Of a DNA stretch of 64,000 bases, positions 4,985 through 51,608 are shown one piece after another (the first letter of the stretch is position 1; each line of letters starts with the position of its first letter). The DNA is taken from assembly GCA_003290165.1 (NCBI GenBank), contig QNQO01006264.1:248001-312000 (forward strand), written 5' to 3'. Source of the DNA: Berberis thunbergii. Lineage: Eukaryota > Streptophyta > Magnoliopsida > Ranunculales > Berberidaceae. A model generated the notes under the pieces. That model had not been told where the DNA came from, did not search any database, and worked only from the letters and a program-made list of their open reading frames with translations. The position numbers and the translations under genes were made by a program.

Positions 4985-5473
4985 GTAACTCTCTTTGCAA
5001 GTGTACCATATTATTTCATAGTTTATGTTTACTCTTATTCTATGTAGCTAAGATTGCTTACAGTTTTAACCTATACAACACAATGCTTCTATTTTGCCTG
5101 ATAAAAAAAAAAAATAGAATGGATGTTCAAGTTTACATGTCTATAAACATATGTGCTTCCTTCAATGCAGATCCTTATGTTACTATTAGAAATGAAAAGG
5201 GAAAGGAAAGAAATATTATTTACAAATTTTGTTCGCAAACCAAAGTTTAATACTACCAACTTTCTGAATTACGCCTTCTTTGAGGATATTAGTATAGTCG
5301 GAACCACCCCAAATGGCCCTCTATCTTCAATCCCACATGCCAATAGTTGAATTTTACAACTACAACCAATTGAGTTTTGTGGAAATCTCCTTGATGATAA
5401 CAAAATTTTCATTTTTCAAATACTCGTAAAATGCTATAATTTATTATGACAGTCTTCTTCTATTAATTCAAAA
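4985..5473. other. Non-coding interior of the CACTA element
   Basis: Begins as the ABF intron, then AT-rich sequence with a 12-A run at 5103-5115. A 65-codon open frame (5153-5350) matches nothing I know and has no gene-like features. No gene seen. Confidence 0.5.
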
Positions 5474-13362: not shown

Positions 13363-13378
13363 TAGGTTTGGGGGTATT
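13363..13378 (+). other. Polypurine tract of nested element
   Basis: TAGGTTTGGGGGTATT directly abuts the 3' LTR start (TGATATAC at 13379). This is the expected plus-strand primer position. Confidence 0.85.
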
Positions 13379-15225
13379 TGATATACACATAATTCATACA
13401 TTTTATACTCCTTAATTTATATATGTTAGTGTTTCGATTCTTATATTTTATAATAATTACTTCGTTTTTATTTCTTTTCAGGAATTTGCGCGTAAACGAT
13501 GAAATCATATTAAGGCGACTGTGTAAGGAATTGCACTTGGTGGTGGTACAAAATAGAGAGAGAAATCCATAAACCTACCCATAAACCAAACCTAAACCCA
13601 ACACCTAGTTCATAACCTAAAACCCATAAACCAAACCCACAAACCAAACTCACAAACCAAACCCAAAACAAACCCATCATCCACCAACATCCACCATTCT
13701 CCACCAACATCCCACATTCTATCCCACGTTCTCCCACAATCCCATATTCTCCCACATCTTCACCTAACATCACTTGCTATTCATTTGTTCTCAATCTATA
13801 AAATCAATGAAAAAGAATAGCAATGGAGGAGGGAGAGAAGGGAAAAGGAATTAGAGACAAATCAAAACCTCTCCTCTCTCACAAGTGATTCTCATCACAA
13901 GCCACCATTTATCTATCAATCACTCATTCTTTGTCCAGACCCCCAGCAATCATCACCTCACCACCACCGTCACCTCGCTACCTCCACCGCCAGACAGCAC
14001 GTCGCCACCGCCAACCACCGTGAAACAGGGGTGTGACAACCCTGTTTCACGCCCGAATCTTCACCATCCTTCAACCCACATCATCCATCACCTCCATCAT
14101 CACCTCTGCACGAATCCTACCACCACAACAAAACGAAGGAAGCCGCAACAGAGCTCGCAAAAACAGCAGAAACAGAGCAAAAACAGTTCTAGGACCACGT
14201 GGAGGACGAATCCAGCCGCGAAGGAGCGACAAACCGCCGGACTGAGCCGCGGCAGAGTCGCGAAACAGCCCTGAAACAGGGAGTTTTCCTTCCTGTTTTT
14301 CCTTGATTTGTTTGCTGTTTTTCTTGGTTTCTTCACCACAATTCGTCTTTTGCAGGTACTAGAGTCGAATTGGATTCGAGAGGAGCTAAAACCAGGTCGA
14401 GAGGATCGAAAACCAGGCCGCGAGAGCCGTCGTCTCGCTGGAGAAGAAGCTCGCACTTCACTGTTCCCTGTAGCAGTACTGTAGCAGGGAGGGAAATTTG
14501 AATAAAAACTTATTTTGGCTATTTTCCACCCCCAGAATCACTCTGTACCACCACAAAGCGTTTTGGGCCCTTTTGTCTCGGGATTTGTGTTCGGACCAAC
14601 TGCTGTTTGACACCCTATCGAGCTTGTGACAAGCCGAATGAGTTTTGTAAATTTTATTGTAATTTATTTTACTGAATTAAGATATTATTGCTAATTACAA
14701 GTTATTTCTGAAACTGATAATTTGCTTTCACCTTGCATGTTCAATTAACTAAACTTGATATGCTTGGTAGTTAGAAGTACTCTTTATCAAGCTTGAAATA
14801 ATTGTTAAGGTTTAAAAGAACATGATATAATTTAAATTGGATTTTAACGATCATATTTTCGGTGTAAGCAAGGGATTCTCATCCCTAAGCTTCTCGTATT
14901 TAAATTCAGTAATTTAGATTTAGATAATTTTGCTAACTCATTGGTGAGTCCAAGCCCACCAAACCCATTTCATTCCATCCATCTCATTTCATTCTATCAT
15001 TTTATTTTATTTTTCTTATCTTTAATTTAGTTTTCTTTTAAAAACACTGTAACCCCTATTTTCCATTTAAATTAGTTTAGATAATTTCTTAAATATCAAT
15101 TGCATTCACCTTCTTCGTGGGATCGACCCGTACTTGCCGTTGTCTACCAGTTAGGCACCGTGCACTTGCGGTATTACAAGTTGGTTTAATTAACCTATTA
15201 ATTTGGGTTACTTAAATCCGCATCA
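13379..15225 (+). repeat. 3' LTR of nested element
   Basis: 1847 bp. Compared by eye with the 5' LTR I count substitutions at four places (for example AACAGAACG versus AACAAAACG) and four indels of 1-2 bases. Followed directly by the target duplication TGGAT. Confidence 0.95.
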
Positions 15226-26499: not shown

Positions 26500-27330
26500 A
26501 GTGTTTTAATACCTGATCGAGATGGGTCGCCAGGGATCATTGTCTAAATATGGATAACGATCACCGAACCCAACCAAAGCTTAGTCGGTAATGACCGATG
26601 ACGATAGATTTTGGTCTGCTCGAAGCTTAGTCGGCAAATAACGGATTACGACAACCTAGAAAGTGGGAGCTTAGTCAGTGCTCATGTAGCCTGATGAAGA
26701 AGATTTGTTGGAGATCATTGTCCAACTATAGATAATGATCACCGAACTTATCGCTTGAAGCCTAGTCCGAATAGAACGGATGACGATGGCCTAGAAAGTG
26801 GGACCTTAGTCAATGCTCATGTAGCTTGGTGAAGACGACTTGGTAGGGATCATTGTCCAATTATAGATAATGATCACCAAAATTATTGCTCGAAGCCTAG
26901 TTCGAATAGAACAGATGACGATGGCCTAGAAAGTGGGAGCTTAGTTAGCGCTCATGTAGCCTGGTGAAGACGGCTTGCCAGGGATCATTGTCCAACTATA
27001 GATAATGATCGCAGAACCTTTTCACTCAAAGCCTAGTCCGAATAAAATAGACGATGACAGTGTAGAAAGTGGGAGCTTAGTTAGTGCTCATGTAGCTTGT
27101 GAAGACGGCTTGCCAGGGACCATTGTTCTTTCGCAGACATTGATCGCCGAACCTTATCACTCTAACACCTAGTCTACGAATAAGTGACAATGTTGGGCTA
27201 GAAAATGGGAGCTTAGTCAGTGCTTATGCAGCCTGAAAAAAACGGTTTGTCAGGATCATTGTACTTCTGTGAGCAATGATTGTCAAACCGAATCAAAACT
27301 TAGTCAACTTCGGCTAATAACGATGGATCA
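26500..27330 (+). repeat. 135-bp tandem repeat downstream of Tat pol, about six copies
   Basis: The string CCTAGAAAGTGGGAGCTTAG recurs at 26655, 26790, 26925, about 27060 and about 27197: spacing 135, 135, 135, 137. Each unit holds an inverted repeat GATCATTGTC...GATAATGATC with an 8-10 base loop whose sequence changes between units while the stem is mostly kept. Tandem repeats at this place are characteristic of Tat elements and are a known source of satellites. Confidence 0.9.
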
Positions 27331-29002: not shown

Positions 29003-31589
29003 TGTAACGACCATAATTAAAGCATATTATAAAAAAAATTGGGCTTTATTAAATTTGAAGTTGAGTCATAGAATAACTAAATAAATAAGGGGGTGTCACT
29101 ATAACCTTGTGCAAACCCTAACCTTGTAGGGTTTTGTCGTTAGGTTGGTTAAATAGATATTAGGTTCTTCCCAGCCGCATAAAAAATGTCTGTAAAAAAA
29201 GGGAAAGGAGAAAAACAGAAGGAGCAAAAGGGAGCAAGAAAAAGAGAAAGGAAGAGACAAGCAAAACAGTGAAGTCTTTTTCTCTCTGTTCGTTTTTTTT
29301 TTTTTGTTGAAGCCGATTGAAAACCATGATGTTTGACATACTCTTTTCATGAAAACTCTGATGTTTGACATACCTTTTTGTCATACTTTTTGACATGCTT
29401 TTGTCATACTTTTGGTGTCTGGAAGAGTTTTTATTTCTGTCAACTTCTAGCGAAAAGTATCTAATTGATGTGTTGCAGACTCACAGCACCTCAGTAGGCA
29501 AATCTCCTAGCAGATCTACATCTACTAATAGTATGTCTTATATTCATTCTAATGAACGCGATGCAATAGATGTGACCTAATTTAGGAAATCAATTGGTAC
29601 AAGTACAAGATCTGAGATCTGTAATATTATTAAAGGCCAAAAGCATGGCGTGAGTTGGTACAAAAAATGTTAGAATAAAACTTTACCAATAAAGCATGCT
29701 TTCATGCATACTAAAAGAAGCATTATAAGACTGTAGAAGCACATTTCTACTTGATGTCTATAGCACTCATAAGAAGTAATTTTACGTCATGCTGTAACAC
29801 ACACTCATAAGTTGTAGATTTAGTCTGAACAACATAGGTCACACCATCCCTTCAGACCATGGTTATATAGCAACCAAATAACTCATTCTTTCACGACATC
29901 TTGTTCCTAAATTAGCTTAATTCAAAAGGAAATGACTTATTTTAATGAAAAAGAGGGTACCTATTCTAATGCTACAGTGGACATTGGTTCCTAAATTGCT
30001 TATGTTTTATGAATACCCATGTCATGCAAGTTAGCTTTAAGCTTTATGGATACCCATGTCATGCAAGTTGTTTTATGCTTTATGGATACTCACTTTAATG
30101 CTATAGTGGTCATGTAAGTTATTTTGTGGATATTGATTAAATGAAGTAGTTGCCATGTAAGGGTGTTTTTCTTAAAATTACAAGGATGGTGGAAAGCATG
30201 AATGTATTCTATATCTTGTTGACATGTCCATATGATTGATGAATTGTGATATGGTGTGCCCTAAAAGAATGGGTAGAATTACTTATGAATGACAAAATGT
30301 CATTGGGAAGGAAAACTGAAATATCAGAAATAAATGATATCGATAAACTCGGATTCCTGAAAATTTATTCACATTGAATTGTATCACTTAGAACTACCAC
30401 ACCTCTTTTTGTTGATTACTTTCCCTCTCTTATAGAGAAACTAAATAACTTGTGGGTTGTCTTGTGGAGGTGGGGTGCCTATTTCTTATAGAGAAACTAA
30501 AATAACCTTCGGGTTAGTCTTGCGGAAATGAGGTGAATTTGTATGCCTAAGATATGCTTTAATATTTATCTGTAAAAAATGTGACGTGACTTTTATGCGC
30601 AGTGATAGGCCAATAGTGGCTTTTGTTACACATATAGTTAGGAGTATCTGGTGATGCATGCCTGTATGTGATGTGTCCCAACTTGGGCATGGATGACGGA
30701 GAAATCCTTTTTATATGAGAGAGGCATACAGGCATGTATGTTCGGCACGGAGGTGGTGCGAATGTGGTATCGTCTAAGTGATCAATCTATTAAAAATGAA
30801 AAATATGTGTAAGTCAAATAATGTGCAAAGATAACAGTTTTCATAAATAAAATACATTTATGTTGTTTCTAACCCCTTTCATGCAGGATGACAAGTCCAC
30901 TAATGTTTCTGCAGGTCAGACTTGTCATAGTCAACATTTACAGAGTAAATTCAATTAAATACATATTTATTTATTATGAAGCCTTCATTGCCTCGTGGAG
31001 GAACTACCAGTTTGTTTTGGTTATCTTGTCGTATTATATTTTTTTTCATGCCATGCGACTTCTTTTATTGATTTTTGGGAACAAAGAATTTCACACCAGC
31101 TTAATTACTAACCCAAGTGGGCTTTGGCTTATTGGGTACATTCCTTTGGGAATGTGCCGACAAGCTTGTTTTCAGGATTTAGTAATTTTGGGAGAGCTTA
31201 GAGCAGTTCGTTTCGTACGTGACGAGCATTGCTGGGATTTGTACATAGTTCGAGAGTTTAGGTCATTTTATTTGTAGGTGACAGATAAATCTTTTGTAAT
31301 AGAACTTGGAGTTTTATTTATTATTTATTGGGAAGGATACATTTGTGATTAGTTGAACTTGTTAGAGTTGGTTCTACGAGATTTAATGTATTTTCCTTCC
31401 TTGTGATGGACTTTTTAGATCAGTTGTTTTATTTCCCTCTAGTTTGGTAAATGGTGCATTCGATTATTTCTAGTAGAGACCAATTGTTACTTTTAGTGAA
31501 TGAAAATTTATGTCTTGAATTTTGGGAAAAACGGATAATCATAAGTGGATTTTGAATTTTTGTTTTTTCTTGAAAATCGAGGCGTGACA
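29003..31589 (+). repeat. LTR 1 of chromovirus complex
   Basis: 2587 bp. Starts TGTAACGACC, ends GAGGCGTGACA. Carries T-rich stretches and the exon-like island at 29479-29580. Other open frames on both strands (for example 29099-29371 minus, 30888-31277 plus) are low complexity or unsupported. Confidence 0.88.
29479..29580 (+). other. Exon-like coding island inside the LTR
   Basis: After an acceptor-like TGTTGCAG, 29479-29580 encodes THSTSVGKSPSRSTSTNSMS, then YIHSNERDAIDVT and a stop. The same island is kept in LTR 3 (52106-52207) and, with more changes, in LTR 2 (near 45963-46063). A second island near 30264-30378 (KEWVELLMNDKMSLGRKTEI) and a third after CATGCAG near 30888 (DDKST.VSAGQTCHSQHLQS) are also shared with LTR 3. 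These read like exons of one host gene carried in the LTR. I cannot name the gene. Confidence 0.4.
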
Positions 31590-33556: not shown

Positions 33557-33660
33557 GTAATTTTAGTGTTTTTGTTTTGTTTTATTCGAATATACTTATT
33601 GACATGTTTATCCATGTTAATGTATATATGTGTAATCCTTTTGAGGTGTGTATGAACCAG
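33557..33660 (+). other. Intron-like insertion in pol, internal 1 (104 bp)
   Basis: The interval starts GTAATTTTAG and ends GAACCAG, and removing it joins the codons K-G and F-I-R-P in frame (phase 2: GG then G). Ty3/gypsy pol normally reads EKGFIRPS without a break here. Unspliced, a TAA follows at once (33558). The same insertion at the same codon is in internal 2 (48769-48871) and in the second chromovirus (40394-40495). Confidence 0.75.
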
Positions 33661-36256
33661 GTTCATACGTCCTAGTAATTCTCCTTGGAGAGTACCCTCC
33701 ATTTTCATTTCGAAGAAGGATGGTACCTTGAGGATGTGTATTGACTATAGGGAGTTGAACAAAAGGACTATTAAGAACAAGTACCCGTTGCCTCAATTGA
33801 TGATCTTCTTGATCAATTGAGGGGAGCAGTGGTGTTTTCTAAGTTAGACTTGAGAACTGGATATCATCAAATGGGTGTTGAAGAAGATAGTATTCCTCTC
33901 ACGGCATTTCGTACGAGATATGGATTGTATGAGTTCCCCGTTATGCCTTTTGGATTGAGAAATGCTCCACCCTTTTTCATTTACCTGATGAGCCGGATCT
34001 TTCAACCATACTTGGATAAATTCATCAATATTTTTATCAATGACATTTTGGTTTACTCCCGTAGTGAAGCAGAGCACAGAGAACATCTCTGGATAGTATT
34101 GCAGACCTTGAGAGAGCAGAAATTGTATGCGAATTTTAGCAAGTGCCATTTTTGGGAGAAAAAAGTAAAATTCTTAGGGCATGTTGTTTCTAGTCAGGGT
34201 ATAGTAGTTGATCCTGATAAGGTGTAATCAGTGAAAGATTGGAAACAACCTACTAATACAACGGAGGTGAGAAGCTTTTTAGGGTTAGCTAGTTACTATA
34301 GAAGATTTATCGAAAAGTTTTCTCTTATTGCTGCCCCTTTGAGTAAGTTGACTCGCAAGAATGTTCAGTTTATTTGGACCAATCAGTGTGAAAAGGCTTT
34401 TCAAGAGTTGAAGCACCGATTAACTACTGCGCCCATTCTAACTATTCCGGTGCATGGTGGGAAGTTGGTGGTTTTCACTGATGCTAGTGGCCCAGGTTTG
34501 GGTTGTGTACTGATGCGAAACCAGAAGGTTGTGTCGTACGTCTCACGACAATTGAAGCCTTATGAGAGACGATATCAAAGAGCTAAATATGAGACAACAA
34601 AGGTGGGTGGAATTTATTAGAAGTTATGATTTTGAGATCTTAAGCACCCAGGTAAGGGAAATGTGGTAGCCGATGTTGTTAGTCGACAACACACCATTAT
34701 AGTTTCACTCATGGTAGAGGAATGGAAGTCTCTTGAGGCTATTTCTTCTTGTGATGTTCAGTTTGTCCAGGGAGCGAACACGGCTTATGTTGGTAGTTTA
34801 TCTGTTCGACCTTCTTTGATCAACAGGGTTTTAGAGGAGCAACATAAGGATTCTCGTTTGATGAGAAAATTAGAGGACTTAGTGCTTGATAATTTAGATG
34901 ATTGTCCCACAGAGTGGTCAATTGAGTTCGATGGTGGGTTGAGATTTCATGGGAGACTTTGTGTGCCCGAGATTGAGGGATTGAAAAAAGAAATTATGGA
35001 TGAGGCTCATAAGTCACGTTTTACCTTTCACTCGGGAGGCACAAAAATGTATCATGATCTGAAGTGAACTTTCTGGTGGGACGGTATGAAGAAGGATGTT
35101 GGAGATTATGTATCACTATGTTTCACTTGTCTACAAGTGAATGCTGAGCATCAACAGCCCTCAGGTTTGTTGCAACCATTAGAAATTCCTATCTGAAAAT
35201 GGGAAAATATTTTGATGGACTTTGTAGGTGGCTTGCCTAAGACTCGACGAGGTAACGAGTCAATTTGGGTTATAATTGATCGTTTGACTAAGTCTGCACA
35301 TTTTGTTCCTGTTGGTGCGCACCGTACTATCGAATAGTTAGCCAGACGATACATCCGTGAGGTAGTTAGGCTTCATGGGGTACCAGTGTCCATTGTATCT
35401 GACAGAGATCCCTTGTTTGCAGTTGAGTTTTGGGAGAGTTTTTAGCGAGCCATGGGGACTAGACTAGATTTGAGTACAACTTATCATTCTCAGACTGATG
35501 GTCAGAAGGATCGGGTGAATCAGATTCTAGAAGATATGCTTCGGGCATGTGTGCTCGATTTTGGTGGTAGTTGGGAGGATTATTTACCTATCATAAAGTT
35601 TGCTTATAACAACAGTTACCATTCTAATATTGGCATGGCTCCATTCGAGGCTTTATATGGGAGACCTTGTCGATCACCATCCTAATGGGCGGAGGTTGGT
35701 GGCATAGTCTTGTTGGGGCCAGAGATGGTCCGAGAGATATCGGAGAAAGTGCAGATTATTAGTGAGCGGATCAAAACTGCTCAAAGCTGACATAAGAGTT
35801 ATGTTGATCAGAAGCGTAAGGCGGTAGATTTTCAGGTTGGGGACGTTGTCTTTTTCAAGGTTTCACCTATGAGCGGTGTATTGAGGTTCAGTAAGAAAGG
35901 GAAGTTAAGTCCTAGATTTGTGGGACCATTTGAGATCATTGCTCGAGTAGGGAGTTTAGCGTATAGACTCGCCTTGCCACCGAGCTTATCAGTTGTTCAT
36001 GATGTGTTTCACATTTCCATGTCGAGGAACTGTGTGAAGGATTCTGCTCACATCGTCTAACCCACATAAATTGAGATTAATGACGACTTCACCCAAGTAG
36101 TACGACTGATCAAGATTGTGGATCGCGATGTGAAACCACTCCGTAGAAGGATAGTGAATTTGGTGAAAGTCCAGTGGAGTAAAGGAGAATGATGTAACTT
36201 GGGAGCTAGAGGACAAGGTGAAACAGTTGCACCCCGGAGCTATTCATCCAGTGAAT
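33661..36256 (+). pseudogene. Chromovirus internal 1: reverse transcriptase to integrase, inactive
   Basis: RT (FIRPSNSPW to LGHVVSSQ) has a 1-base deletion near 33797, and its catalytic box reads FINDIL instead of FIDDIL, a lost aspartate. RNase H has [13 protein letters not shown] but lacks about 130 bp of its centre near 34577, present in internal 2. Integrase follows: HSGGTKMYHDL, MDFVGGLP and VSDRDPLF supply landmarks, but the third catalytic Glu reads KDR (TDGQKDRVN). The C-terminal chromodomain-like end (VNLVKVQW) is frameshifted. Stops at 34225, 35065, 35195, 35683 and more. Confidence 0.85.
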
Positions 36257-36289
36257 CTTGGGACGAGATTCCTTTTGAGGTGTGTACAA

Positions 36290-36384
36290 TGTAACGACCC
36301 TAATTACTGCACATTATAATTCTTTTTGGGCTTTATTAAATTTGAAGTCGAGTGATAGAATAACTAAATAAATAAGGGGGTGTC
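36290..36384 (+). repeat. LTR 2 of chromovirus complex, first piece
   Basis: TGTAACGACCCTAATTACTG to GGGGGTGTC, cut by the insertion of the second chromovirus at 36385. GTGTC (36380-36384) is the target duplication. Confidence 0.9.
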
Positions 36385-38558
36385 TGTAATACCCGCCCTA
36401 TTTACTTACCAATATACTTGCATTATTTTAGAAGTTAATAATATTTATTGGTAGTAATTATTAATTGATAATAATTACAAGTAATAATAGTTTATGATTT
36501 TTAATTTCAAACTTAGGTTTAGACTAGTGGTGGGTAAGAGATAAAGGGTGGGTGTGTTTAGCCAAAGAAACCCTAAATTTTCCTTTAAAGATACAACCCT
36601 AGTTTATTTTTCTTCTCTTTGCACACACACACAAAAGAAAAAGAAAAGAAAAAGAAAAAAATCCTACGTTGAAAGTGGGAGGAGCTTGGAAAGAGGAAGT
36701 TTGGATTCTTGCAAAAATCAGTGAGTTTAACTCTATCCCTCTTCAACATTTTGTTCCTTTAATGTTTTTTTTTTCTTCTTTTTGAATGTGATGATGGGTT
36801 TGTGAGTATTATCTGCTCCTTTTACTTTCTTCACTTATTCAATCAACATTGAATCGATATAAACATGATAAGTTTTAATTTTTGTTACGTTTGATGGTTC
36901 GAGATGATTATGTTTGTAGTATTAATTGGTTTTGAGTAAATTCATTTTGAATATGAATTGTAGGAGGGAACTATAATTGTTTGCTAAGGGGTTTTTTTTT
37001 TTTTTCGAAACCAAGTTGAATTGATATTGACATGAAGTAGAGTTGAATTTGAACATGTGAAATGGGTATGTACGTCGTGAAATTAAGTTTGCATAACTCA
37101 GAAATTTATCAAATTAAGTGACATGGATTGATAGATCTCGTCCTAACCCATTTCAACAATGATTTTTGAAATTTATAGTACAAATTCTAGTCCAACAAAA
37201 CCCCCTATGATATGTACATCAAACCATCAAAGCTTAAGGCGTAGTTCCATACTTCACTACAAAAACCCACAAACAACACAACCCCACGGCAAACCAAGTT
37301 ATCCCTTGCCAAGAATTAGTAAAAATAGACAAAACCCTCTTTAGTTCAGCTTCAAATCAACTCAGATCAGTTGAATTAGTGGAGTTCCACCTCCTGACGT
37401 CTCTGAACAACTCCACAATGTATCCTTGTGAAGAAATCTTTGAAGAACTCGTGAAACCCCTTTTCGAAATCCTTTGATTTCGATCAAAACCATCACAAAA
37501 CCTTGTTGATGCCCTTTCCTCATTCTCTTAGTCGTCTTTTCAAGGTGAAGAATTGAAGGAGGAAATAAAGAAGAAAGGAAAAAGTCTATACATGCGATGG
37601 CTATATGCTGCTACTTGGTGTTACATAGCATTATACACTATTAAACGTTAACTACGAACACTAGTACGACATGTGATCTACATGCACTAATACACTAATG
37701 GCTCAATTAAAATAATTGGTAAATGTTCTTTTTTCCACAACTCCAAAAAAAAAATGTGAAAAGAAAAAAAAATTATTTGTATACAGACTTGCTTGTATAC
37801 GTGTGATAGAATTATGGGTATGCAGACTTGCTTGCATATCAGTACACCGTTCCATGTGAGTTCGGTTGTACGTGTAGAATGCTTGTCAGTGATCGAACTT
37901 CGGGTGAGATGACATGACACTCGAGGTGGCACCCCACTTGGGTCATGTACGCTCCGAGTGGCTTCGATGGCAAGGGAGGCACACTTGGGTGAGGTGTGTT
38001 CGGCACAGGAGGAGAGTGCGATTGTGGAAAAAGAAGCCAAGAATTAGAAATCAAAAACAAATAATTGCATAAAACCATTTAATTGAGCATGTCATTAAAT
38101 TGTGTAGAGATTATGTTAGCTCGTGCTAGGTTAGCCTTGAGGGAAGAAACTAACAGCTCATTCGAATCTTGAATGAGAACTACCTGTCTTCCTCAAGGTG
38201 AAATTTGCATTTTGTACTTTTATATTTAATTGTTTGATTTGTAAGTTTGCTCACACCAGTATAATTATACTGACCCAGATTTTGTATTGTTTTACAAATT
38301 TGGGTATGTTCTTAATGAGCGTAGTTCCAGAGAACTATCAGGGTTAATTGGTGCGTAAGGAAGGATAGTAGCTGCGTGGCGATAACTAAGGAGTCGACGC
38401 GTTTTTTTTTTTAGTTCTTTATTATTATTCCTAGGTAATCAGATGTAGGATTTGGAAATAAATGCTAAGTTTTGTCAGATACTTATTTGGGGAATTGATT
38501 ATTGTAATTTTCATTTATTCTTTGTGGACCTCATCTTTAGAGGAAGAATATTGAGGAA
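36385..38558 (+). repeat. 5' LTR of second chromovirus, 3' end deleted
   Basis: Identical in layout to the 3' LTR up to GAATATTGAGGAA, then stops. The last ~120 bp of the LTR (present at 45448-45568) and the whole primer binding site are missing, and the gag leader starts directly at 38559. This copy cannot prime reverse transcription now, so the deletion followed insertion. Minus-strand frames 37687-38078 are shadows repeated in the other LTR. Confidence 0.88.
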
Positions 38559-38619
38559 ATGGGATTATGTACGTTTGTATTATTAAGTACTAACGATTAT
38601 TTATTTTCGCTTGAAGGTA

Positions 38620-40393
38620 ATGGCGAACACTCGATCAAATGGGGCCAATGGACAGAATAGTGATAACGGGCGGAATAACACTAATGGCCCAAATGGTTCA
38701 AATGATCAGGGAGGGGGTCCTAACTTGGTTCAGGTAGACGTGGGAGCCATGATGACACAACTTTTGCAGGTTGTGCAGAACAACCATCAGGATAGTCATG
38801 GTGACCCGTTTGCCAGGAGAAATAAGGAATTTGGGAACTTAGGCGGTCAGAGGTTTAATGGAGAGACTGGCCCTATTGCAGCTGAGAAGTGGATTCGCAA
38901 GTGTGAAACTATATTCAATCGGATGCAGATGACTGAGGTGCAGAAACAAGAATTAGATGCTCATAACTTGGATGGTAATGCCAGGTATTGGTGGGATTCT
39001 GTGGAGGAGAGCATGGATACGACTGTTATGACTTGGGAGACTTTCAAGTCCAAATTTGACTGTCAGTTTGTACCTGAAGCTGTGAAGTCTCAGCTAGCTG
39101 CAGAGTCCTTTAGTTTGACGCAAGGTACAAATTCAGTGACCCAGTATGTGACAAAATTCAACGAGTTGACTCGGTATGCTCCGTACTTGGTTGATACCCC
39201 TGCCAAGAAGAATCAGAAGTTTATCAAGGGTTTGGGTCATTATCTGTCAAAGTCGCTTTTACCCTTTGATAAAGAACCCTTTGACAGAGTTTTAGACTTA
39301 GCTCTCAAGTTTGAAGAGCAAGACGCTGCTTTTCGAGAGGCTAGAGAGAAGAGCAGGGAGGTGAGTCGTCTAGAAACTCGCGTTCATCTGGGAACTGAGA
39401 TCAGAACAGGTATAAGCCTTATGATCAAAATCAGCGAGGATCTGGATTTCAGTATCAGCCGAGGTCCCAATCTGGAGGTCAGTTCCAGCAGAGGCCCCAG
39501 GGAGGTTTTAGGCCGCAGGGTGGCTACAGGCCCCAAGGGCAGCAGTGGCAGAGACCGACATTTCAGAATCAGGACCCACAAGGCCCATATCAGCAACCTC
39601 GACCTCAGGTACCTACAGCACCACGAGGACAGGCTCCCACTGGTAAGTTATGCTACAAATGTAACCGACCAGGGCATCTCATTCGTGATTGTCCCAGTTG
39701 GCAAGGCGCTCCACAGGGTAGGCAGGCCCCACCAGCTCCAGCACGTGCATTTGCGGTTATACCAGGGCAAGAGAATGTTGAAGGTACCATCACCACTCAG
39801 TTTCCCTTGCGAGTATTATTTGATTCTGGTGCTTCTCATTCTTTTATTTCTCGACGAATGGTAGAAAAAGAAAATCTTAAAACTATGCCACTTATCAAAC
39901 CTTTATGTGTTGAGACACCCATAGGAGGCACTGTCACATTATTTGAGCAATGTAGAAATTTTGAGATCTCTTTAATGGGTCAAAAACTTGTTGCGGATTT
40001 GATAGTTATGAATTTTGAGAATTTTCATGTTATCCTTGGGATGGATTGGTTGGGTAAAAACTATGTTACTATAGATTGTGCCGCGAGAACCATTTTGATA
40101 GATACACCAGGGTTGCCGCGAGTTAGTCATGTTTGTGAACCTTGTGGGGACTCCACAATGATGAGCACTCTATACTCTATGGATATACCAGAGAAAGATA
40201 TTAGCGTGGTTGAGGTGGTGAAAGATTATGTAGATGTGTTCCAAGAGATTCCTGGTTTACCACCTAAGAGAGAAGTCGAATTTCGAATTGACTTGTTGGC
40301 AGGAGCAGCACCGATTTCGAAAGCTGCATACCGATTGGCTCCTAAGCACTTGGATGAGATGAAAGTCCAACTGGAGGAATTACTCCAGAAGGG
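38620..40393 (+). pseudogene. Second chromovirus gag and protease, one frameshift
   Basis: Gag starts MANTRSNGANGQNSDNGRNN, with a variable N-terminus and the conserved core HNLDGNARYWWDSVEE and VTKFNELTRYAPYLVDTPAK. Near 39358 the frame shifts, and a TGA (39396) stands where an Arg codon is likely. In the shifted frame follow a Gln/Pro/Arg-rich linker, the zinc knuckle CYKCNRPGHLIRDC (39651 onward) and the protease LFDSGASHSFISRRMVEK with VILGMDWLGKN. Gag and protease are one frame in this lineage. The frame ends at the intron-like donor 40394. Confidence 0.87.
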
Positions 40394-40495
40394 GTAAGGA
40401 AAATTTTCTCATATGTTTTTTTTATAATAGTTATATATATATGTGCTTATTTGTGAGTAACTATATGGTTAATCCTTTAAGGTGTGTATATTTAG
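40394..40495 (+). other. Intron-like insertion in pol, second chromovirus (102 bp)
   Basis: GTAAGG donor and TATTTAG acceptor; removal joins QKG to FIRPSNSP in frame. A TAA at 40395-40397 ends translation of unspliced RNA right after the protease. The donor is a good match to the plant consensus and the interval is T-rich, as plant introns are. Position and phase equal those at 33557 and 48769. Confidence 0.75.
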
Positions 40496-43221
40496 GTTTA
40501 TACGACCAAGTAATTCTCCATGCGGTGCGCCTGCTATTTTTGTTTCTAAGAAGGATGGTACTTTGAGGATGTGTGTCGACTATAGAGAACTAAATAAGGT
40601 GACAATAAAAAATAAGTACCCTCTTCCGCGGATAGATGATTTGTTAGATCAGTTGAAAGGGGCGGTTGTATTTTCGCAGTTGGATTTGAGGACTGGGTAC
40701 CATCAGATGGGTGTTGAAGAGCAGAGCATACCTCTGACGGCGTTTCGGACTCGGTATGGGTTATATGAATTTCTGGTCATGCCATTTGGATTGACCAATG
40801 CTCCTGCTTTCTTTATGGATTTGATGAACCGTATTTTTCGTCCGTACCTTGATAAATTTGTTGTCATTTTCATTGATGATATTATGGTATATTCTCGAAA
40901 CATGGAGGACCATCGAGAGCAATTTGAAAATAGTGTTGCAGACTTTAAGAGATCACAAACTGTATGCTAAATTTAGTAAGTGTCACTTTTGGGAGAAAGA
41001 GGTGAAATTTCTTGGGCATGTGATTTCTAGCGAAGGGATAGCCGTCGATCCTGACAAAGTTGTAGCAGTTAAGGAATGGAAACAACCCACTAATGCAAGT
41101 GAAATTCGGAGTTTTTTAGGGTTGGCTGGATATTACAGGAGGTTTATTGAGAAATTTTCGTTGATTGCAGCACCTTTGACGAGTCTGACTCGAAAGGATG
41201 TCAAGTTTATATGGACTAAGGATTGTGAGACTGCATTTCAAGAGTTGAAGCAAAGTTTGACTACAGCTCCAATTTTAATCATTCCCACACGTGGCGGAAA
41301 GTTAGTGGTGTTTACAGATGCTAGCGGAACAGGTTTGGGATGTGTTTTGATGCAAGATCAGAAAGTAGTTTCATACGCTTCTAGGCAGTTAAAGCCACAT
41401 GAGAGGCGATATGCCACGCATGATTTGGAATTAGCAGCAGTGGTTTTTGCTTTAAAAATATGGAGGCATTATTTGCATGGAGAGAAATTTGAGTTGTATA
41501 CTGATCACAAAAGCTTGAAGTACCTATTTTCACAACGTGATTTAAACATGAGGCAACAGAGGTGGATGGAGTTCATTAGTAGTTATGATTTTGAAATCCT
41601 TTACCATCCAGGCAAAGGGAATGTGGTGGCGGATGCCCTTAGCAGGCAACATAGTGTGTTGACCGCTCTTATGGTGCAAGAGTGGAAGATTCTCGAGGTT
41701 ATTGCAGCTCATGACATTTTGACTGTTCCGCATAATAGAGGAGCTTATGTTTGTAGTTTGACAGTGAAACCTACCCTGATTACCCGGGTCATTTCCATGC
41801 AGCACACTGACCCGTTTCTCATGAACAAAATAAATGATTTGATAATGGATACGTTGAATGACTGCCCTACTGATTGGTCCGTTGACATAGATGGAGGATT
41901 GCGATTTCATAGTAGACTTTGCGTACCAGATATTTTGGGCATTAAAGAAGGAGATTATGGACGAGGCTCATCGTTCTAAATTTACTATTCATCCAGGGGG
42001 TACGAAGATGTACCATGATTTGAGAAGGAGTTTTTGGTGGGAAGGCATGAAACGAGATGTTGGGGAATATGTCTCTCACTGTTTCACTTGTCAGCAAGTG
42101 AAAGCGGAACACCAGAGGTCGTCTGGTTTATTGCAGCCTCTAGATATACCCATGTGGAAGTGGGAACACATTTCGATGGATTTTGTTGATGGGTTACCTA
42201 GATCTCGGAGGGGTAATGAGTCCATTTGGGTTATTGTTGACCGTTTGACTAAGTGTGCACATTTTATCCCCATTGGTGCATCTCGAAATACTGACAAGTT
42301 AGCTGCTATGTATATCCGAGAAGTGGTATGGTTGCATGGGGTTCCTATTACCATTGTTTCAGATAGAGATCCATTGTTTACATCTGCATTTTGGGAAAGT
42401 TTCAACGTGCTATGGGTACTACCTTGGCTATGAGCACAACGTATCATCCACAGACTGACGGGCAGACTGAGCGGGTAAATCAGATTTTAGAGGATATGTT
42501 GCAAGCTTGCATCATGGATTTTGGTGGTAGTTGGGAGGATCACTTACCGTTGGTGGAGTTCTCGTACAATAATAGTTACCAATCGAGCATTGGTATGGCA
42601 CCCTTTGAAGCTTTGTATGGTAGGCCTTGTAGATCTCCTAGTTGTTGGGCAGAGGTAGGTGATACCGTATTGTTGGGACCATAGATTGTTAGAGAGACTG
42701 TAGGGAAGATTGAGATTATTCGGGGAAGGATAAAAACTGCCCAGAGTAGACAGAAAAGCTATGCAGATCAAAAGCGCAAGAATGTAGTGTTTGCGGTTGG
42801 TGATTTAGTTTTCCTTAAGGTGTCTCCCATGCGAGGTGTGATGAGATTTGGCAAGAAAGGAAAGTTGAGCCCGCGGTATATTGGGCCATTCGAGATTGTC
42901 GGATGTGTTGGTCGCTTAGCTTACAAGCTTGCGTTGCCGCCCAGTTTGTCGATGATTCATGATGTCTTTCATGTCTCGATGCTGAGAAAATGTGTGAAAG
43001 ACCCAACTCATATTGTTCAACCTACAACTATTGAACTAAATGAGGATTTGACCTATACAGTTGGGCCAGTGAGGATAATTGATCGTGACGTGAAACAACT
43101 ACGACGTAAGAAAGTCAACTTGGTCAAAGTTCAGTGGGTTCAGTGGAGTGAAAAGGAGAACGATGTCACCTGGGAGCTGGAGCACAAAGTAAAGCGTATG
43201 CACCCAGAATTATTCGCCTAA
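40496..43221 (+). pseudogene. Second chromovirus RT, RNase H, integrase
   Basis: RT is intact in motif ([11 protein letters not shown]) but has a 1-base insertion at about 40921. RNase H is complete ([55 protein letters not shown]). Integrase has HHCC (HPGGTKMYHDL; HCFTCQQVK) and all three catalytic residues ([26 protein letters not shown]), with frameshifts near 41945 and 42407 and a TAG at 42682-42684. The C-terminal GKLSPRYIGPFEIV and VNLVKVQWVQWSEKENDVTW region is a chromodomain-type tail ending MHPELFA. Five lesions in pol and gag together, so it is recently dead. Confidence 0.9.
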
Positions 43222-43254
43222 TCCTTATCCTAACGAATCTCGGGACGAGATTCT

Positions 43255-43271
43255 TTTAAGGTGTGTATATT
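43255..43271 (+). other. Polypurine-tract region of second chromovirus
   Basis: TTTAAGGTGTGTATATT spans the last 16 internal bases and the first base of the 3' LTR (TGTAATACCC from 43271). The identical 17-mer occurs inside the pol intron at 40476-40492. Confidence 0.8.
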
Positions 43272-45568
43272 GTAATACCCGCCCTATTTACTTACCAATA
43301 TACTTGCATTATTTTAGAAGTTAATAATATTTATTGGTAGTAATTATTAATTGATAATAATTACAAGTAATAATAGTTTATGATTTTTAATTTCAAACTT
43401 AGGTTTAGACTAGTGGTGGGTAAGAGATAAAGGGTGGGTGGGTTTAGCCAAAGAAACCCTAAATTTTCCTTTAAAGATACAACCCTAGTTTATTTTTCTT
43501 CTCTTTGCACACACACACAAAAGAAAAGCAAAAAAAAAAAAAAAATCCTACGTTGAAAGTGGGAGGAGCTTGGAAAGAGGAAGTTTGGATTCTTGCAAAA
43601 ATCAGTGAGTTTAACTCTATCCCTCTTCAACATTTTGTTCCTTTAAAGTTTTTTTTTTCTTCTTTTTGAATGTGATGATGGGTTTGTGAGTATTATCTGC
43701 TCCTTTTACTTTCTTCACTTATTCAATCAACATTGAATCGATATAAACATGATAAGTTTTAATTTTTGTTACGTTTGATGGTTCGAGATGATTATGTTTG
43801 TAGTATTAATTGGTTTTGAGTAAATTCATTTTGAATATGAATTGTAGGAGGGAACTATAATTGTTTGTTAAGGGTTTTTTTTTTTTTTTCGAAACCAAGT
43901 TGAATTGATATTGACATGAAGTAGAGTTTGAATTTGAACATGTGAAATGGGTATGTACGTCGTGAAATTAAGTTTGCATAACTCAGAAATTTATCAAATT
44001 AAGTGACATGGATTGATAGATCTCGTCCTAACCCATTTCAACAATGATTTTTGAAATTTATAGTACAAATTCTAGTCCAACAAAAAACCCCTATGATATG
44101 TACATCAAACCATCAAAGCTTAAGGCGTAGTTCCATACTTCACTACAAAAACCCACAAACAACACAACCCCACGGCAAACCAAGTTATCCCTTGCCAAGA
44201 ATTAGTAAAAATAGACAAAACCCTCTTTAGTTCAGCTTCAAATCAACTCAGATCAGTTGAATTAGTGGAGTTCCACCTCCTGACGTCTCTGAACAACTCC
44301 ACAATGTATCTTTGTGAAGAAATCTTTGAAGAACTCGTGAAACCCCTTTTCGAAATCCTTTGATTTCGATCAAAACCATCACAAAACCTTGTTGATGCCC
44401 TTTCCTCATTCTCTTAGTCGTCTTTTCAAGGTGAATAATTGAAGAAGGAAATAAAGAAGAAAGGAAAAAGTCTATACATGCGATGGCTATATGCTGCTAC
44501 TTGGTGTCACATAGCATTATACACTATTAAACGTTAACTACGGACACTAGTACGACATGTGATCTACATGCACTAATACACTAATGGCTCAATTAAAATA
44601 ATTGGTAAATGTTCTTTTTTCCACAACTCCAAAAAAAAAATGTGAAAAGAAAAGAAATTATTTGTATACAGACTTGCTTGTATACGTGTGATAGAATTAT
44701 GGGTATGCAGACTTGATTGCATATCAGTGCATCGTTCCATGTGAGTTCGGTTGTACGTGTAGAATGCTTGTCAGTGATCGAACTTCGGGTGAGATGACAT
44801 GACACTCGAGGTGGCACCCCACTTGGTTCATGTATGCTCCGAGTGGCTTCGATGGCAAGGGAGACACACTTGGGTGAGGTGTGTTCGGCACAGGAGGAGA
44901 GTGCGATTGTGGAAAAAGAAGCCAAGAATTAGAAATCAAAAACAAATAATTACATAAAACCATTTAATTGAGCATGTCATTAAATTGTGTAGAGATTATG
45001 TTAGCTCGTGCTAGGTTAGCCTTGAGGGAAGAAACTAACAGCTCATTCGAATCTTGAATGAGAACTACCTGTCTTCCTCAAGGTGAAATTTGCATTTTGT
45101 ACTTTTATATTTAATTGTTTGATTTGTAAGTTTGCTCACACCAGTATAATTATACTGACCCAGATTTTGTATTGTTTTACAAATTTGGGTACGTTCTTAA
45201 TGAGCGTAGTTCCAGAGAACTATCAGGGTTAATTGGTGCGTAAGGAAGGATAGTAGCTGCGTGGCGATAGCTGAGGAGTCGACGCGTTTTTTTTTTTTTA
45301 GTTCTTTATTATTATTCCTAGGTAATCAGATGTAGGATTTGGAAATAAATTGCTAAGTTTTGTCAGATACTTATTTGGGGAATTGATTATTGTAATTTTC
45401 ATTTATTCTTTGTGGACCTCATCTTTAGAGGAAGAATATTGAGGAACCTTATTAGTTGTTTTTTTTTTCTTTTATGCCTTATGACTGTACCATTTTTATG
45501 TGTTCCTGTCATGCTTTGGTTTTTGGACAATCTATTTATTTATGTTGTTCGAAAATTGGGGCGTGATA
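43271..45568 (+). repeat. 3' LTR of second chromovirus
   Basis: 2298 bp, complete, ending GCGTGATA where the family end should be GCGTGACA (C to T). Followed by the target duplication GTGTC. Confidence 0.93.
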
Positions 45569-45573
45569 GTGTC

Positions 45574-46960: not shown

Positions 46961-48768
46961 ATGGCTAGAAGACATACTCGTCAGAATCCAAATGGGAACG
47001 GTAGCGGTAGCAGTGAAAATGTTGTTCTAAATGGAGATGGCAATGGAAATGGAAGTGGTCATGGTGAGAATACGATCAAGTTGAGTCAGGCTATGATGAT
47101 GCAGTTGCTACAAGGATTGCAACAAAATAGTAATCAGGGTGACCTTTTTGCTAGAAAGGTTAAGGAGTTTGGGACATTGGGTGGTAAGAGGTTTACAGGA
47201 GAAAATTCGAGAGATGCAGATGCATGGGTCCAAAGCTGTGAGACTATTTCAAGAGGATGCGACTTACTAAAGTCCAAAAACAGGAGTTAGCTACACATCA
47301 TCTGGATGGTGGTGCCAGTTACTGGTGGGAGGCTTTACTACCCTCCGTTGATATTGCTGTTATTACATGGGATGACTTCAAGGATCGGTTTGGGAATATA
47401 TTTGTGCCTAATGCAGTTAAGGCGCAATGGGTTGCGGAGTTTAATATGTTGAAGCAGACTGGGAATATGACTGTGGAGAAGTATGTCATGAAGTTTAATG
47501 AGTTGTCGCGTTATGCTCCGTATTTGGTGGACACACCAGAAAAGAAAAATGTCAAATTTATTGGGGGTTTGCATCATTACCTATCAAGGGCTCTTCTCAC
47601 CGCTGACAGGGAGAGTTATGACAAAGTTTTGGATTTGGCATTGAAGTACGAGGAACAAAACAAGCTGTATCATGAGAATAGGGAGAAGGGCAAACAAAAG
47701 TTGGGCGAGGAGTCAGGAAACACTCGTCACCAGGGTGCATCGCGTGATTATCGTAGTGACCGTAGCCATTTTCGTCCTTATGATCAAGGGCAAAAGGGTG
47801 AACAATTTCAGAACCAAAGATTTGAAGGTGGTTCCCAGAACCAACAGCAGGGAGGAAACCAGTTCCAGAGACAGAGATATAATCATTCCCAGAAACAAGA
47901 TGGTAATCAGCACCAGAGCTAGAATGGGAACCAATTCCATCGACAGGGTAACCAGAGAAAAGGTTATCATGGTCAGCGAAATCAGACTATCCAAACAACA
48001 TCGGGGAGACATGCAGTGACCTACTTCTCTTGTGGGCAACCAGGTCATCGAATGCGAGATTGCCCTAATGGTAGGAACGCGCCCCAGAATAGGCAAGGTC
48101 AACCCACCCAAGGGCGTGTATTTGTCGCCCCTACCAAATCAGGAGAACTTTCAAGGTACTCCTGATTTTCCTATCCCTAATATGAAAGTTTTATTTGATA
48201 CCGGTGCATCATATTTTTTCATATCACGATGTTTAGTTAATCGAAAAATGTCGAAAACTTTGCTATTTGTTATACCATTATGTGTTACTATCCCTTTAGG
48301 AGGCTCAGCAACATTAAATGAATAATGTAAAAATTTTAAGATTTCCTTCCTCGACAAAGTGTTTCTTGTCAACTTGATTGTGCTTGACTTTGAGAGTTTT
48401 GATGTGAGTTTGGGAATGGATTGGTTGTGTAAGAACCTAGTCACGCTGGATTGTGTAAAGAAGATAGTTTCCATTCATGCTCCAAGCATGCCCCCTATTT
48501 CTCACATTTGTGGAAATTGTGAAGAGTCAGTGATGTCTTGTTTTCTGTACTCGGTGGGGACGTCGGAGAGAGAGATCCGAGATGTAGAAGTGCTAAGATA
48601 TTATGAGGATGTATTTCAGGAAATTCTAGGCTTGCCACCTAGGTGAGAAGTTGAGCTCCAAATCAATTTAATACCTGGAACCGCTTCTATTTCTAAGGCG
48701 GCGTACTGGATGGCACCGAAGGAGTTGAACGAGGTGAAAGTCCAGTTGGAAGAGATGTTGCAAAAAGG
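46961..48768 (+). pseudogene. Chromovirus internal 2: gag and protease
   Basis: Starts MARRHTRQNPNGNG. A 1-base deletion (near 47248) moves the frame before EVQKQEL-like KVQKQELATHHLDGG. The zinc knuckle has lost its first Cys (YFSCGQPGHRMRDC, about 48022). An extra C at about 48128 shifts the frame into the protease (VLFDTGASYFFIS). Stops at 47920, 48323 and 48644; the last two are at the same codons as in internal 1. Confidence 0.85.
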
Positions 48769-48871
48769 GTAATTTTAGTGTTTTTGTTTTTTTTATTCGA
48801 ATATACTTATTGACATGTTTATTCATGTTAATGTATATATGTGTAATCCTTTTGAGGTGTGTATGAACCAG
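48769..48871 (+). other. Intron-like insertion in pol, internal 2 (103 bp)
   Basis: GTAATTTTAG...GAACCAG at the same codon as in internal 1. It contains the 17-mer TCCTTTTGAGGTGTGTA (48847-48863). Confidence 0.75.
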
Positions 48872-51574
48872 GTTCATACGTCCTAGAAAATCTCCGTGGG
48901 GAGCACCCACCATTTTGTTTCGAATAAGGATGGTACCTTGAGGATGTGTATTGACTATAGGGAGTTGAACAAAAGGACTATCAAGAACAAGTACCCGTTG
49001 CCTCGAATTGATGATCTTCTTGATCAATTGAGGGGAGCAGTAGTGTTTTCGCATTTTGACTTGAAAACTGGATATCATCAGATGGGTGTTAAAGTAGATA
49101 GTATTCCTCTCACGACATTTCGTACAAGATATGGATTGTATGAGTTCCCCGTTATGCCTTTTGGATTGAGAAATGCCCCAGCCTTGTTCATGGACCTGAT
49201 GAACCGGATCTTTCGACCATACTTGGATAAATTCGTCATTATCTTTATCGATGACATTTTGGTTTACTCCCGTAGTGAAGCAGAGCACAGAGAACATCTC
49301 AGGATAGTATTGCAGACTTTGAGAGAACAAAAATTGTATGCGAATTTTAGCAAGTGCCATTTTTGGGGGAAAGAAGTAAAATTATTAGGGCATGTTGTTT
49401 CTAGTCAGGGTATAGCAGTTGATCCTGATAAGGTGAAATCAGTGAAAGATTGAAAACAACCTACTAATGGAACGGAGGTGAAAAGCTTTTTAGGGTTAGC
49501 TAGTTACTATAAAAGATTTATCGAAAAGTTTTCTCTTATTGCTGCCACTTTGACTAAGTTGACTCACAAGAATGTTCAGTTTATTTGGACTAATCAGTGT
49601 GAAAAGGATTTTCAGGAGTTGAAGCACCGATTAACTACTGCGCCCATTCTAACTATTTCGGTGCATGGTGGGATGTTGGTGGTCTTCACTGATGCTAGTG
49701 GCACAGGTTTGGGTTGTGTACTGATGTGGTTGTGTTGTACGCCTCACAACAATTGAGGCCTCGTGAGAGGCGATATCCTAACCATGACTTGGAATTAGCA
49801 GCAGTTGTGTTTGCTTTAAAGATGTGGAAACACTAATTTTATGGGGAGCATTTTGAGTTGTTCACGGATCACAAAGGTCTAAAGTATTTGTTTTCGCAGA
49901 AAGAGCTAAATATGAGACAACAAAGGTGGGTGGAATTCATTAGTAGTTATGATTTTGAGATTTTTACCACCCAGGTAAGTGAAATGTAGTAGCCGATGCT
50001 CTTAGTAAGCAACACACTATTATGGCTTCACTCATGGTAGAGGAATGAAAGTCTCTTGAGGCTATTTAATTTTGTGATGTTCAGTTTGTCCAGGGAGCGA
50101 ACACGGCTTATGTTGGTAGTTTATCTGTTCGACCTTCTTTGATCAGCAGGGTTTTAGAGAAGCAACATAAGGATTCTCATTTGATGAGCAAATTAGAAGA
50201 CTTAGTGCTTGATAATTTAGATGATTGTCCATCAGAGTAGTCAGTTGAGTTCGATGGTGGGTTGAGATTTCACGAGAGACTTTGTGTGCCCGAGATTGAG
50301 GGACTGAAGAAAAAAATTATGGATGAGGCTCATAAGTCACATTTTACCATTCACCCGACACAAAAATATATCATGATCTGAAGCGAACTTTCTGGTGGGA
50401 CGATATGAAGAAGGATGTGGGAGATTATGTATAACAGTGTTTACCTTGTCAACAAGAGAAGGTCGAGCATCAGCGACCCTCAGGTTTGTTGCGACCATTA
50501 GAAATTCCTATCTGGAAATGGGAAAATATTTTGATGGACTTTGTAGATGGCTTACTAAAAACCCGACGAGGTAACGAGTCAATTTGGGTTATAGTTGACC
50601 GTTTGATTAAGTCTGCTCATTTTGTTCCTGTTGGTGTGCACCGTATTACCGAACAGTTAGCCAGACGATACATCTGTCATGTAGTTAGGCTTCATGGGGT
50701 ACCAGTGTCCATTGTATCTGACCGAGATCCCTTGTTTGCAGCTGAATTTTGGGAGAGTTTTTAGCGAGCCATGGGGACGAGACTAGATTTGAGTACAACT
50801 TATCATACTCAGACTGATGGTCAGAAGGAACGGGTGAATCAGATTCTAGAGGATATGCTTCGGGCATGCGTGCTCAATTTTGGTGGTAGATAGGAGGATT
50901 ATTTACCTCTCATAGAGTTTGCTTATAACAACAGTTACCATTCTAGTATTGGCATGGTTCCGTTTGAGGCTTTATATGGGAGACCTTGTCGATCACCATC
51001 CTAATGGGCGGAGGTTGGTGACATAGTCTTGTTTGGGCCAGAAATGGTCCGGGAGACATCGGAGAAAGTGAAGATTATTAGAGAGCGGATCATAACTTCT
51101 CAAAGCCAACAGAAGAGTTATGCTGATCAGAAGCGTAAGGCGGTAGAATTTTAGGTTGGGGACGTTGTCTTTCTCAAGGTTTCACCTATGAGCGGTTTAT
51201 TGAGGTCCGGTAAGAAAGGGAAGTTAAGTCTTAGATTTGTGGGACCATTTGAGACTATTGCTAGAGTAGGGAGTTTAGCCTATAGACTCGCCTTGCCACC
51301 GAGCTTATAAGTTGTTCATGATGTGTTTCACATTTCCATTCCGAGGAAGTGTGTGAAGGATCCTGCTCACATTGTCCAACCCACAGAAATTGAGATTAAT
51401 GATGACTTCACCCAAGTAGTATGACCGATCAAGATTGTGGATCATGATGCGAAACAACTCCGTAGAAGGATAGTGAATTTGGTGAAAGTCAAGTGGAGTG
51501 AAAAGGAGAATGATGTAACTTGGGAGCTAGAGGACAAGGTGAAACAGTTGCACCCGGAGCTATTCATCCCGTGA
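48872..51574 (+). pseudogene. Chromovirus internal 2: RT, RNase H, integrase
   Basis: RT is open for 185 codons (48896-49453) with an intact catalytic box FIDDILVYS. RNase H retains the central block missing in internal 1, but decayed (stops and frameshifts from about 49720). Integrase pieces [16 protein letters not shown] and TDGQKERVNQ keep the three catalytic residues. Stops at 50762, 50890, 51002 and others. The C-terminus ends HPELFIP with TGA at 51572-51574, giving the true end of this family's pol. Confidence 0.85.
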
Positions 51575-51608
51575 ATCTTGGGACGAGATTCCTTTGAGGT
51601 GTGTACAA

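Follow-up and report, generated by a model that had tools for sequence, protein, structure and literature searches.

Why would a retrotransposon keep an intron in the middle of its polyprotein? Copying of spliced RNA should rid retroelements of introns; for several families to retain them is unusual and suggests a function. The question is raised by a 64,000-nucleotide (nt) stretch of the Berberis thunbergii genome (contig QNQO01006264.1, positions 248,001 to 312,000; hereafter the window), in which three long terminal repeat (LTR) retrotransposons of chromovirus type, elements A, B and C, are each interrupted between protease and reverse transcriptase (RT). We found that the interruption is very probably an intron of the spliceosomal kind, carried by one subclade of the plant chromoviruses, whose unspliced RNA would encode Gag-Pro and whose spliced RNA would encode Gag-Pro-Pol.

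Results

An insertion with intron borders at one site in pol

In A, B and C the insertion separates the codons of K-G from those of F-I-R-P in phase 2 (AAR GG/G TTY ATA CGN), a phase judged from the natural frames on both sides and from relatives lacking the insertion. Each copy begins with GTAA and ends with AG, and the donor itself creates a stop codon, since GG/GTAA reads GGG TAA. The first-pass annotation had reported insertions of 104, 102 and 103 bp at the same pol codon and in the same phase, with GT...AG borders, a T-rich body and a stop at the donor; direct reading of all three copies returned exactly these positions and features. It had also described the insertion as common to two distinct LTR families. 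Two families do share it, but A and C are a single family, so the three window copies amount to two families and only two independent lineages. A and C are about 92% alike and form a tandem pair (29003-55058) with a common middle LTR. B is nested inside that middle LTR, flanked by a 5-bp target duplication seen by eye (GTGTC, 36380-36384 and 45569-45573); its LTRs are 98.6% alike, and its pol is about 70% alike to that of A/C.

When the A/C and B introns are aligned, good conservation is confined to the donor and the final ~30 nt. The pattern AATCCTTT-(0-2)-AGGTGTGT has three matches in the window, all inside introns A, B and C (mean 0.00 in 100 shuffles). An AG farther upstream was rejected as the acceptor; as read from the sequence, its use would lead A and D (a further family, below) into a stop codon and throw B out of frame.

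Borders are kept while length drifts

A search of the plant's own genome (2.24 Gb) with a 211-nt query from B gave 1068 first-look candidates, of which 40 were scored and 30 read; all 40 scored matches align across the insertion (query 1-208 or 1-211). The resulting 31 B-family rows comprise the window copy, its own genome record L077 and 29 others. The GTAAG and TTTAG borders are kept in 31 of 31, although the insert varies from 97 to 114 nt and leaves a remainder of 0, 1 or 2 on division by three in 13, 10 and 8 rows. Length changes common to at least three B copies number four in the 102-nt insert versus three in the surrounding 2 kb.

With protein P0017 as the query, the same genome gave 46,253 candidates, of which 150 were scored. 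The best 30 RT loci were read and fall into four groups, A (9 loci), B (11), D (6) and E (4). The insertion is present in every A, B and D locus (26 of 30), with bodies that differ among the three families, and absent from E, in which K-G-F-I-R-P-S is uninterrupted in four of four loci. Over these 26 loci and the three window copies (29 rows), 27 rows retain GT and all 29 retain AG, at lengths of 99 to 130 nt (remainder 0, 1 or 2 in 3, 13 and 13 rows). T content is 44.6-56.9% in the insertions vs 23.7-30.0% in their flanks. Together the insertions display the GT...AG borders, T-rich body and frame-free length of spliceosomal introns. The upstream frame terminates at K-G before the donor in seven of the eight loci from A, B and D that were inspected, the exception being L129 with an earlier stop, and several loci have open RT-side frames of 904-926 amino acids downstream of the insertion. 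P0002 as the query gave 40,689 candidates. The 150 matches scored were classified by eye. In 91 of them the alignment begins at residue 5 or 6, the pattern of an interrupted A/B-type frame; the other 59 begin at residue 1 or 2 and are of E type and of lower identity.

A second intron in families D and E, and exact intron-less sites in E

The frames of D and E also break after GNVEG, at the junction of the gag zinc knuckle with protease. The frames of A and B are continuous at this point (ENVQG-TFDF.. in L132, ENVEG-TITTQF.. in L138). In E the break is an intron of 136-140 nt, GTATG...TGCCAG, in 12 of the 13 copies read; in D it is GTATG...TATTAG, of 136-139 nt in the three copies measured. The intron end has been removed by deletion in L149 (D), and L136 (D) has other sequence at this stretch. 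In two further D copies, L148 and L152, an LTR end, primer binding site (PBS) and leader replace gag upstream of protease; these are gag-less derivatives. Thus, A and B carry the protease-RT intron only, D both introns, and E the gag-protease intron only.

In L179, the thirteenth E copy, exactly the GT...AG stretch is missing and the frame reads GNVEG-FVHSS..LFDTGAS. A genome-wide pattern search at up to 3 mismatches found such empty E sites at seven places on seven contigs, L179 included, all matching at 0 or 1 mismatch, and the reversed-pattern control gave 0. Exact losses of this kind are the outcome expected if spliced RNA is reverse transcribed. Intron-less DNA of exact form exists for the gag-protease intron at these seven E sites and for the protease-RT site in the E lineage as a whole, and none was seen for the A/B intron. 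Splicing is strongly implied by the kept borders at free length and by the splice-exact E copies. Separately, three E-type matches (G000:C78:23295, 30298 and 37301) lie at an exact spacing of 7003 bp and are probably a tandem array of the element.

The insertion marks a subclade

A database search with the RT protein of B scored 7998 matches, and among the 120 listed, most of those long enough to cover the site continue across it without a break. P0009 and P0011 have a run of unrelated letters at their start, just before the insertion site; P0017 and P0040 have only three such letters, a weak sign. P0002 and P0004 share the RT signature and read through, and P0089, which deviates from the usual letters farther downstream, was left out of the carrier count. 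Among the 120 matches listed of 1280 to the gag-pro region of B, P0123 and P0124 terminate exactly at K-G (..LLSKG and ..MLQKG), possibly at contig ends, and P0122 continues into an insert ending ILLRCV, which by our own reading is what the end of A's intron would encode in that frame. RT trees place B, P0009, P0011, P0017, P0040, P0002 and P0004 in one clade (100/100); the gag-pro rows P0121-P0124 are in none of the trees. Since B and the RT-side carriers fall in one clade while most listed relatives read through, the insertion is, as far as these sequences reach, the mark of a subclade and not of chromoviruses at large. When a clade profile was used for a third protein search, most of the elements recovered lacked the insertion, and IMG/VR scans found no relative. 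Two plant-like contigs without it, L001 and L002, are filed in Mycobacterium and Streptomyces clavifer assemblies, where contamination is likely.

The initial proposal that the insertion predates the split of the families and has been retained agrees with border conservation at free length, with the clade of carriers, with the exact absence from E, probably a loss, and with the seven splice-exact empty sites of the second intron in E. In the comparison of relatives that had been suggested as a check, the insertion marks a subclade, and its GT-AG borders are kept although its length drifts.

A copy of the 3' LTR primer site inside the intron

The 3' part of the protease-RT intron holds a copy of the sequence that flanks the element's own 3' LTR (Table 1). 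In A and B the copy is exact over 17 nt, the final base of the matched stretch in B being the first base of its 3' LTR. The longest cross matches between A/C and B are 9-10 nt, and the longest match in 2000 dinucleotide shuffles per intron was 11 nt for A and 13 nt for B. Among other copies, 17 stretches of A, D and E include 16 with the motif adjoining the 3' LTR (13 as TTTT(A/G)AGGTGTGTAT, three with one change), and 20 stretches of B include 18. Inside the intron, the conserved 3' motif includes GTGTGTAT, and all 26 loci of A, B and D have AGGTGTGTA at 17-20 nt upstream of exon 2; AGGTGTGTA was not found on the coding strand of the four E loci (~3.6 kb searched). A stricter claim, that each motif matches its own primer site, was rejected: the A/G position agrees in 8 of 10 pairs and fails in L129/L168 and L145/L158, and therefore only the common core of the motif is claimed. 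An eleventh pair had no primer site within the stretch examined. Sixty-four viral stretches from IMG/VR that match the motif pattern were likewise set aside as chance, since none of them encodes a relative with a credible E-value (best 0.16).

Within family B, the motif (40469-40492) has 2 of 696 letters changed (0.29%) across 29 copies compared with the window copy. The same copies differ at 67 of 1971 letters in the intron body (3.4%) and by 3.7 and 2.9% in the flanking exons, and show no change at donor or acceptor. Because these copies were selected by similarity over 211 nt, the fair controls are the in-query exons (1.0 and 2.5%) and body (3.7%), and counting distinct changes gives a smaller contrast, two at 29 sites vs 16 at 65, 9 at 44 and 16 at 65. 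The 15 lowest 24-nt windows among 2900 along the alignment all begin at 40464-40478, and the motif is the most conserved stretch of ~2.9 kb in this family.

What might the motif do? The plus-strand RNA primer of a retroelement must end at the sequence adjoining the 3' LTR, and the T run that precedes the motif would, we presume, fit a U-box. The intron contains both an internal copy of the 3' polypurine tract (PPT) and an upstream T run, the sequence features of a central PPT. Given how primers end, and given the internal primers of Ty1 and HIV-1, a second, central plus-strand start inside the intron is reasonable, and we advance it tentatively. Against it, family E thrives without the intron motif, and the motif is not all purine (RAGGTGTGTA holds pyrimidines).

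It may instead be a splicing element, a reading we also regard as a genuine possibility short of a firm expectation. On this account, a branch-point-like TAAT, pyrimidines and a decoy AG (TTTTRAG) would precede the second AG, which is used, and would keep splicing inefficient; the likeness to the 3' LTR flank would be a relic of the intron's origin. The position of the motif suits a branch point and tract, an AG does come before the used AG in A, B and D, and the used AG of family A sits in a perfect palindrome, GTATGAACC-A-GGTTCATAC (33645-33670; L127-L133, L153 and L154), which could hide the splice site. The palindrome is not present in B and D, and a general acceptor hairpin was rejected, as a distinctive fold is seen for A and C (z -2.6) but not for B (z -0.28). 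Two observations speak against a splicing role. The motif is missing from the end of the gag-protease intron of D and E and is therefore dispensable for splicing in this clade. In addition, the match to the 3' LTR flank continues beyond the AG as far as GTGTGTA, and does so in three families with seemingly unrelated intron bodies.

Architecture of the window elements and other features

Features of the three elements are collected in Table 1. A Pfam scan of B found Retrotrans_gag, RVP_2, RVT_1, RT_RNaseH, Integrase_H2C2/rve, SH3_Tf2-1 and Chromo, the last (E 9e-05, 22.8 bits) slightly below the 25.1 cut-off. With its GAG-PROT-RT-RH-INT order and C-terminal chromodomain, B is a chromovirus; membership in Ogre/Tat is ruled out by the chromodomain and by the single RNase H region in the six B frames scanned. 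Frame damage besides the intron-like insertion is present in each of the three window copies.

The PBS of A, TGGTATCAGAGC, is one that we take to be of the tRNA-Met (iMet) type. Long LTRs (~2.2-2.3 kb in B, ~2.6 kb in A) combined with a PBS of this presumed type are the features of Tekay/Del elements. An excerpt of one report gives the Tekay element Mtr58 an LTR of 2.1 kb and a tRNA-Met PBS (PMC2533021). The Tekay/Del label for A and B is provisional, as the RT trees contained no named Tekay reference elements.

Table 1. Positions of the introns, coding regions, LTRs and primer-related sequences of elements A, B and C in the window
Feature	Positions	Strand	Details
Protease-RT intron of A	33557..33660	+	104 nt, GTAATTTT...TGAACCAG
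Protease-RT intron of B	40394..40495	+	102 nt, GTAAGGAA...ATATTTAG
Protease-RT intron of C	48769..48871	+	103 nt, same family as A
Copy of A's 3' LTR flank, inside intron A	33636..33652	+	17 nt, exact match to 36270-36286
Copy of B's 3' LTR flank, inside intron B	40476..40492	+	17 nt, exact match to 43255-43271
Motif inside intron C	48847..48863	+	exact match of 13 nt with the flank of C's own 3' LTR and of 17 nt with that of A
Plus-strand primer (PPT) position of A	36270..36289	+	adjoins 3' LTR start 36290
Plus-strand primer (PPT) position of B	43254..43270	+	adjoins 3' LTR start 43271
Plus-strand primer (PPT) position of C	51592..51608	+	adjoins 3' LTR start 51609
5' LTR of A	29003..31589	+	presumed iMet-type PBS TGGTATCAGAGC next
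5' LTR of B	36385..38558	+	own 3' end and PBS missing
3' LTR of B	43271..45568	+	target duplication GTGTC next (45569-45573)
B gag open frame	38587..39864	+	Retrotrans_gag, Ty3_capsid
B zinc knuckle and protease open frame	39399..40397	+	ends ..KG-stop at intron donor
B open frame with RT start, 3' of intron	40473..40970	+	RVT_1
B RT end, RNase H, integrase H2C2 and core, SH3_Tf2-1, chromodomain	40828..43221	+	several open pieces

Elsewhere in the window, an LTR-like pair 99.5% alike (6920-8768 and 13378-15225) possibly bounds a young non-autonomous element; a 317-amino-acid frame between the two (10522-11475) has no credible Pfam match. There is a tandem repeat of period 135 in about four copies (26618-27262), a 174-amino-acid open frame with a weak bZIP match under the cut-off (4523-5047), and a 237-amino-acid open frame antisense to the pol of C (48668-49381, minus strand) with no credible family match. 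Rfam and tRNA scans of the window gave no matches.

Discussion

Our results suggest how an intron could be of use to these elements. Unspliced RNA would be translated into Gag-Pro, stopping at the codon made by the 5' splice site, and spliced RNA into Gag-Pro-Pol, a division that follows from the reading frames. The spliced fraction would then set the dose of Pol, and unspliced RNA would be the usual genome. Family D would have three possible products, and in family E unspliced RNA would give Gag and spliced RNA Gag-Pro-Pol. We infer that the protease-RT intron is spliced today, that this splicing is partial and that it controls the ratio of proteins.

A wider proposal, which we offer with some reserve, is that the intron is a dual device. 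It would split Gag-Pro from Gag-Pro-Pol and also hold a central primer copied from the 3' PPT, and only unspliced RNA would be a full template. The split would have moved from protease-RT to gag-protease by way of the two-intron family D, and E would have lost the primer with the first intron. If this is true, the intron-borne primer copy would tie reverse transcription to intron retention.

Several observations weigh against a regulated protease-RT intron. Two family A copies (L128 and L131) have a changed donor GT, one change being common to both. None of the 91 interrupted-type P0002 matches among the 150 scored reads through, and a search of the 2.24 Gb that allowed up to 3 mismatches returned no empty B site. 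The lack of a spliced-out A/B copy is expected if unspliced RNA serves as the genome; an A/B intron that is not spliced would leave the same absence. The seven empty E sites may stem from fewer events, and splicing could be near complete or irrelevant to the Gag:Pol dose.

Could the intron then be an old passenger, nearly always spliced and with no role in protein dose? The success of E without a protease-RT intron is in keeping with this, as 59 of the 150 scored P0002 matches are uninterrupted. However, E has the gag-protease intron instead, and an intron that splits the polyprotein is found in all four families read. Moreover, a genome consisting mostly of spliced RNA should have left many A/B copies free of the intron, and there were none among the 91. 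We consider a passenger unlikely.

How the families came to differ is a related question. D and E are grouped in the trees (93/92 and 92/91, neither starred) and carry the second intron at one common place, and in the approximately unbiased (AU) test a clade of A, B and D without E has a p value of 0.0435. E is probably sister to D on these sequences, and its lack of the protease-RT intron is probably a loss. From the D and E grouping, the common second intron and the AU results, the likely path runs from an ancestor with the protease-RT intron through a gain of the gag-protease intron before D and E diverged to loss of the first intron in E. The reverse polarity, in which E keeps the ancestral state and the protease-RT intron was gained later, gains from the AU test, as a tree that puts E outside every intron bearer is disfavoured yet survives at the 5% level (p 0.060); in that tree P0017 and P0040 are treated as bearers on weak evidence. 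Set against the grouping, the common second intron and the p value of 0.0435, we find this polarity improbable.

That the insertion is no intron at all, but unspliced sequence in defunct copies or a stop codon that ribosomes read through, might draw on the damage to all three window copies and the lack of a spliced-out A/B copy, and is very hard to reconcile with borders conserved while length drifts out of frame, the exact absence of the insertion in E, the exact empty sites of E's other intron and the copies with open RT frames of 904-926 amino acids downstream.

New relative to the first-pass annotation are the second intron site, the intronic copy of the 3' LTR primer site and the absence of the insertion from most listed chromovirus relatives. 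One clade in one genome offers the one-site, both-site and other-site states together with exact intron-less copies, and makes the connection among splicing, the Gag:Pol dose and the choice of genomic RNA testable by RNA sequencing.

Comparison with known systems

The comparisons below draw on excerpts of the cited papers. Plant LTR elements are generally intron-free, with Ogre and EVADE as exceptions (PMC12786077), and BARE1, Bagy2 env and CRR are further spliced plant elements (PMC3735527). The Ogre intron has been described together with a gap in Bianca (PMC6317226). Unlike the present chromodomain elements, Ogre is a non-chromovirus Ty3/gypsy element (Tat) with an extra RNase H (PMC6317226), and its gap averages 274 bp, against ~100 nt here. 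The present elements also differ from Ogre in the K-G/F-I-R-P site where RT begins, in the second intron site of other families and in the 3' primer-site copy inside the intron.

CRR, the rice centromeric retrotransposon, is a chromovirus. It is likewise a plant Gypsy element with spliced RNA (PMC3735527), but in the present elements splicing would join Pro to RT. BARE1 and EVADE, both Ty1/copia, are similar in that splicing balances Gag and Pol in plants, and the BARE1 intron is also U-rich, at 104 nt (PMC3735527, PMC12786077). Their logic is reversed: unspliced RNA gives Gag-Pol and spliced RNA gives Gag.

As for the primer copy, a second internal plus-strand primer is likewise found in Ty1, HIV-1, the PPT clusters of Sireviruses and Athila4/Calypso (PMC2829016), and the excerpt of that paper describes none of the extra PPTs within an intron. 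Beta chromovirus PPTs consist of 7-14 purines (PMC3605345), whereas the primer here holds pyrimidines.

Among the literature matches listed, from which most subscription literature falls outside, there was no account of introns in Tekay-type chromoviruses. Retrosat2 is assigned to the Tekay row of a table in PMC6317226, and the word intron was not found in the excerpt of PMC3485330 on Retrosat2. Altogether, as far as these excerpts reach, the plant precedents Ogre, CRR, BARE and EVADE each differ from the Berberis elements in lineage, place or logic.
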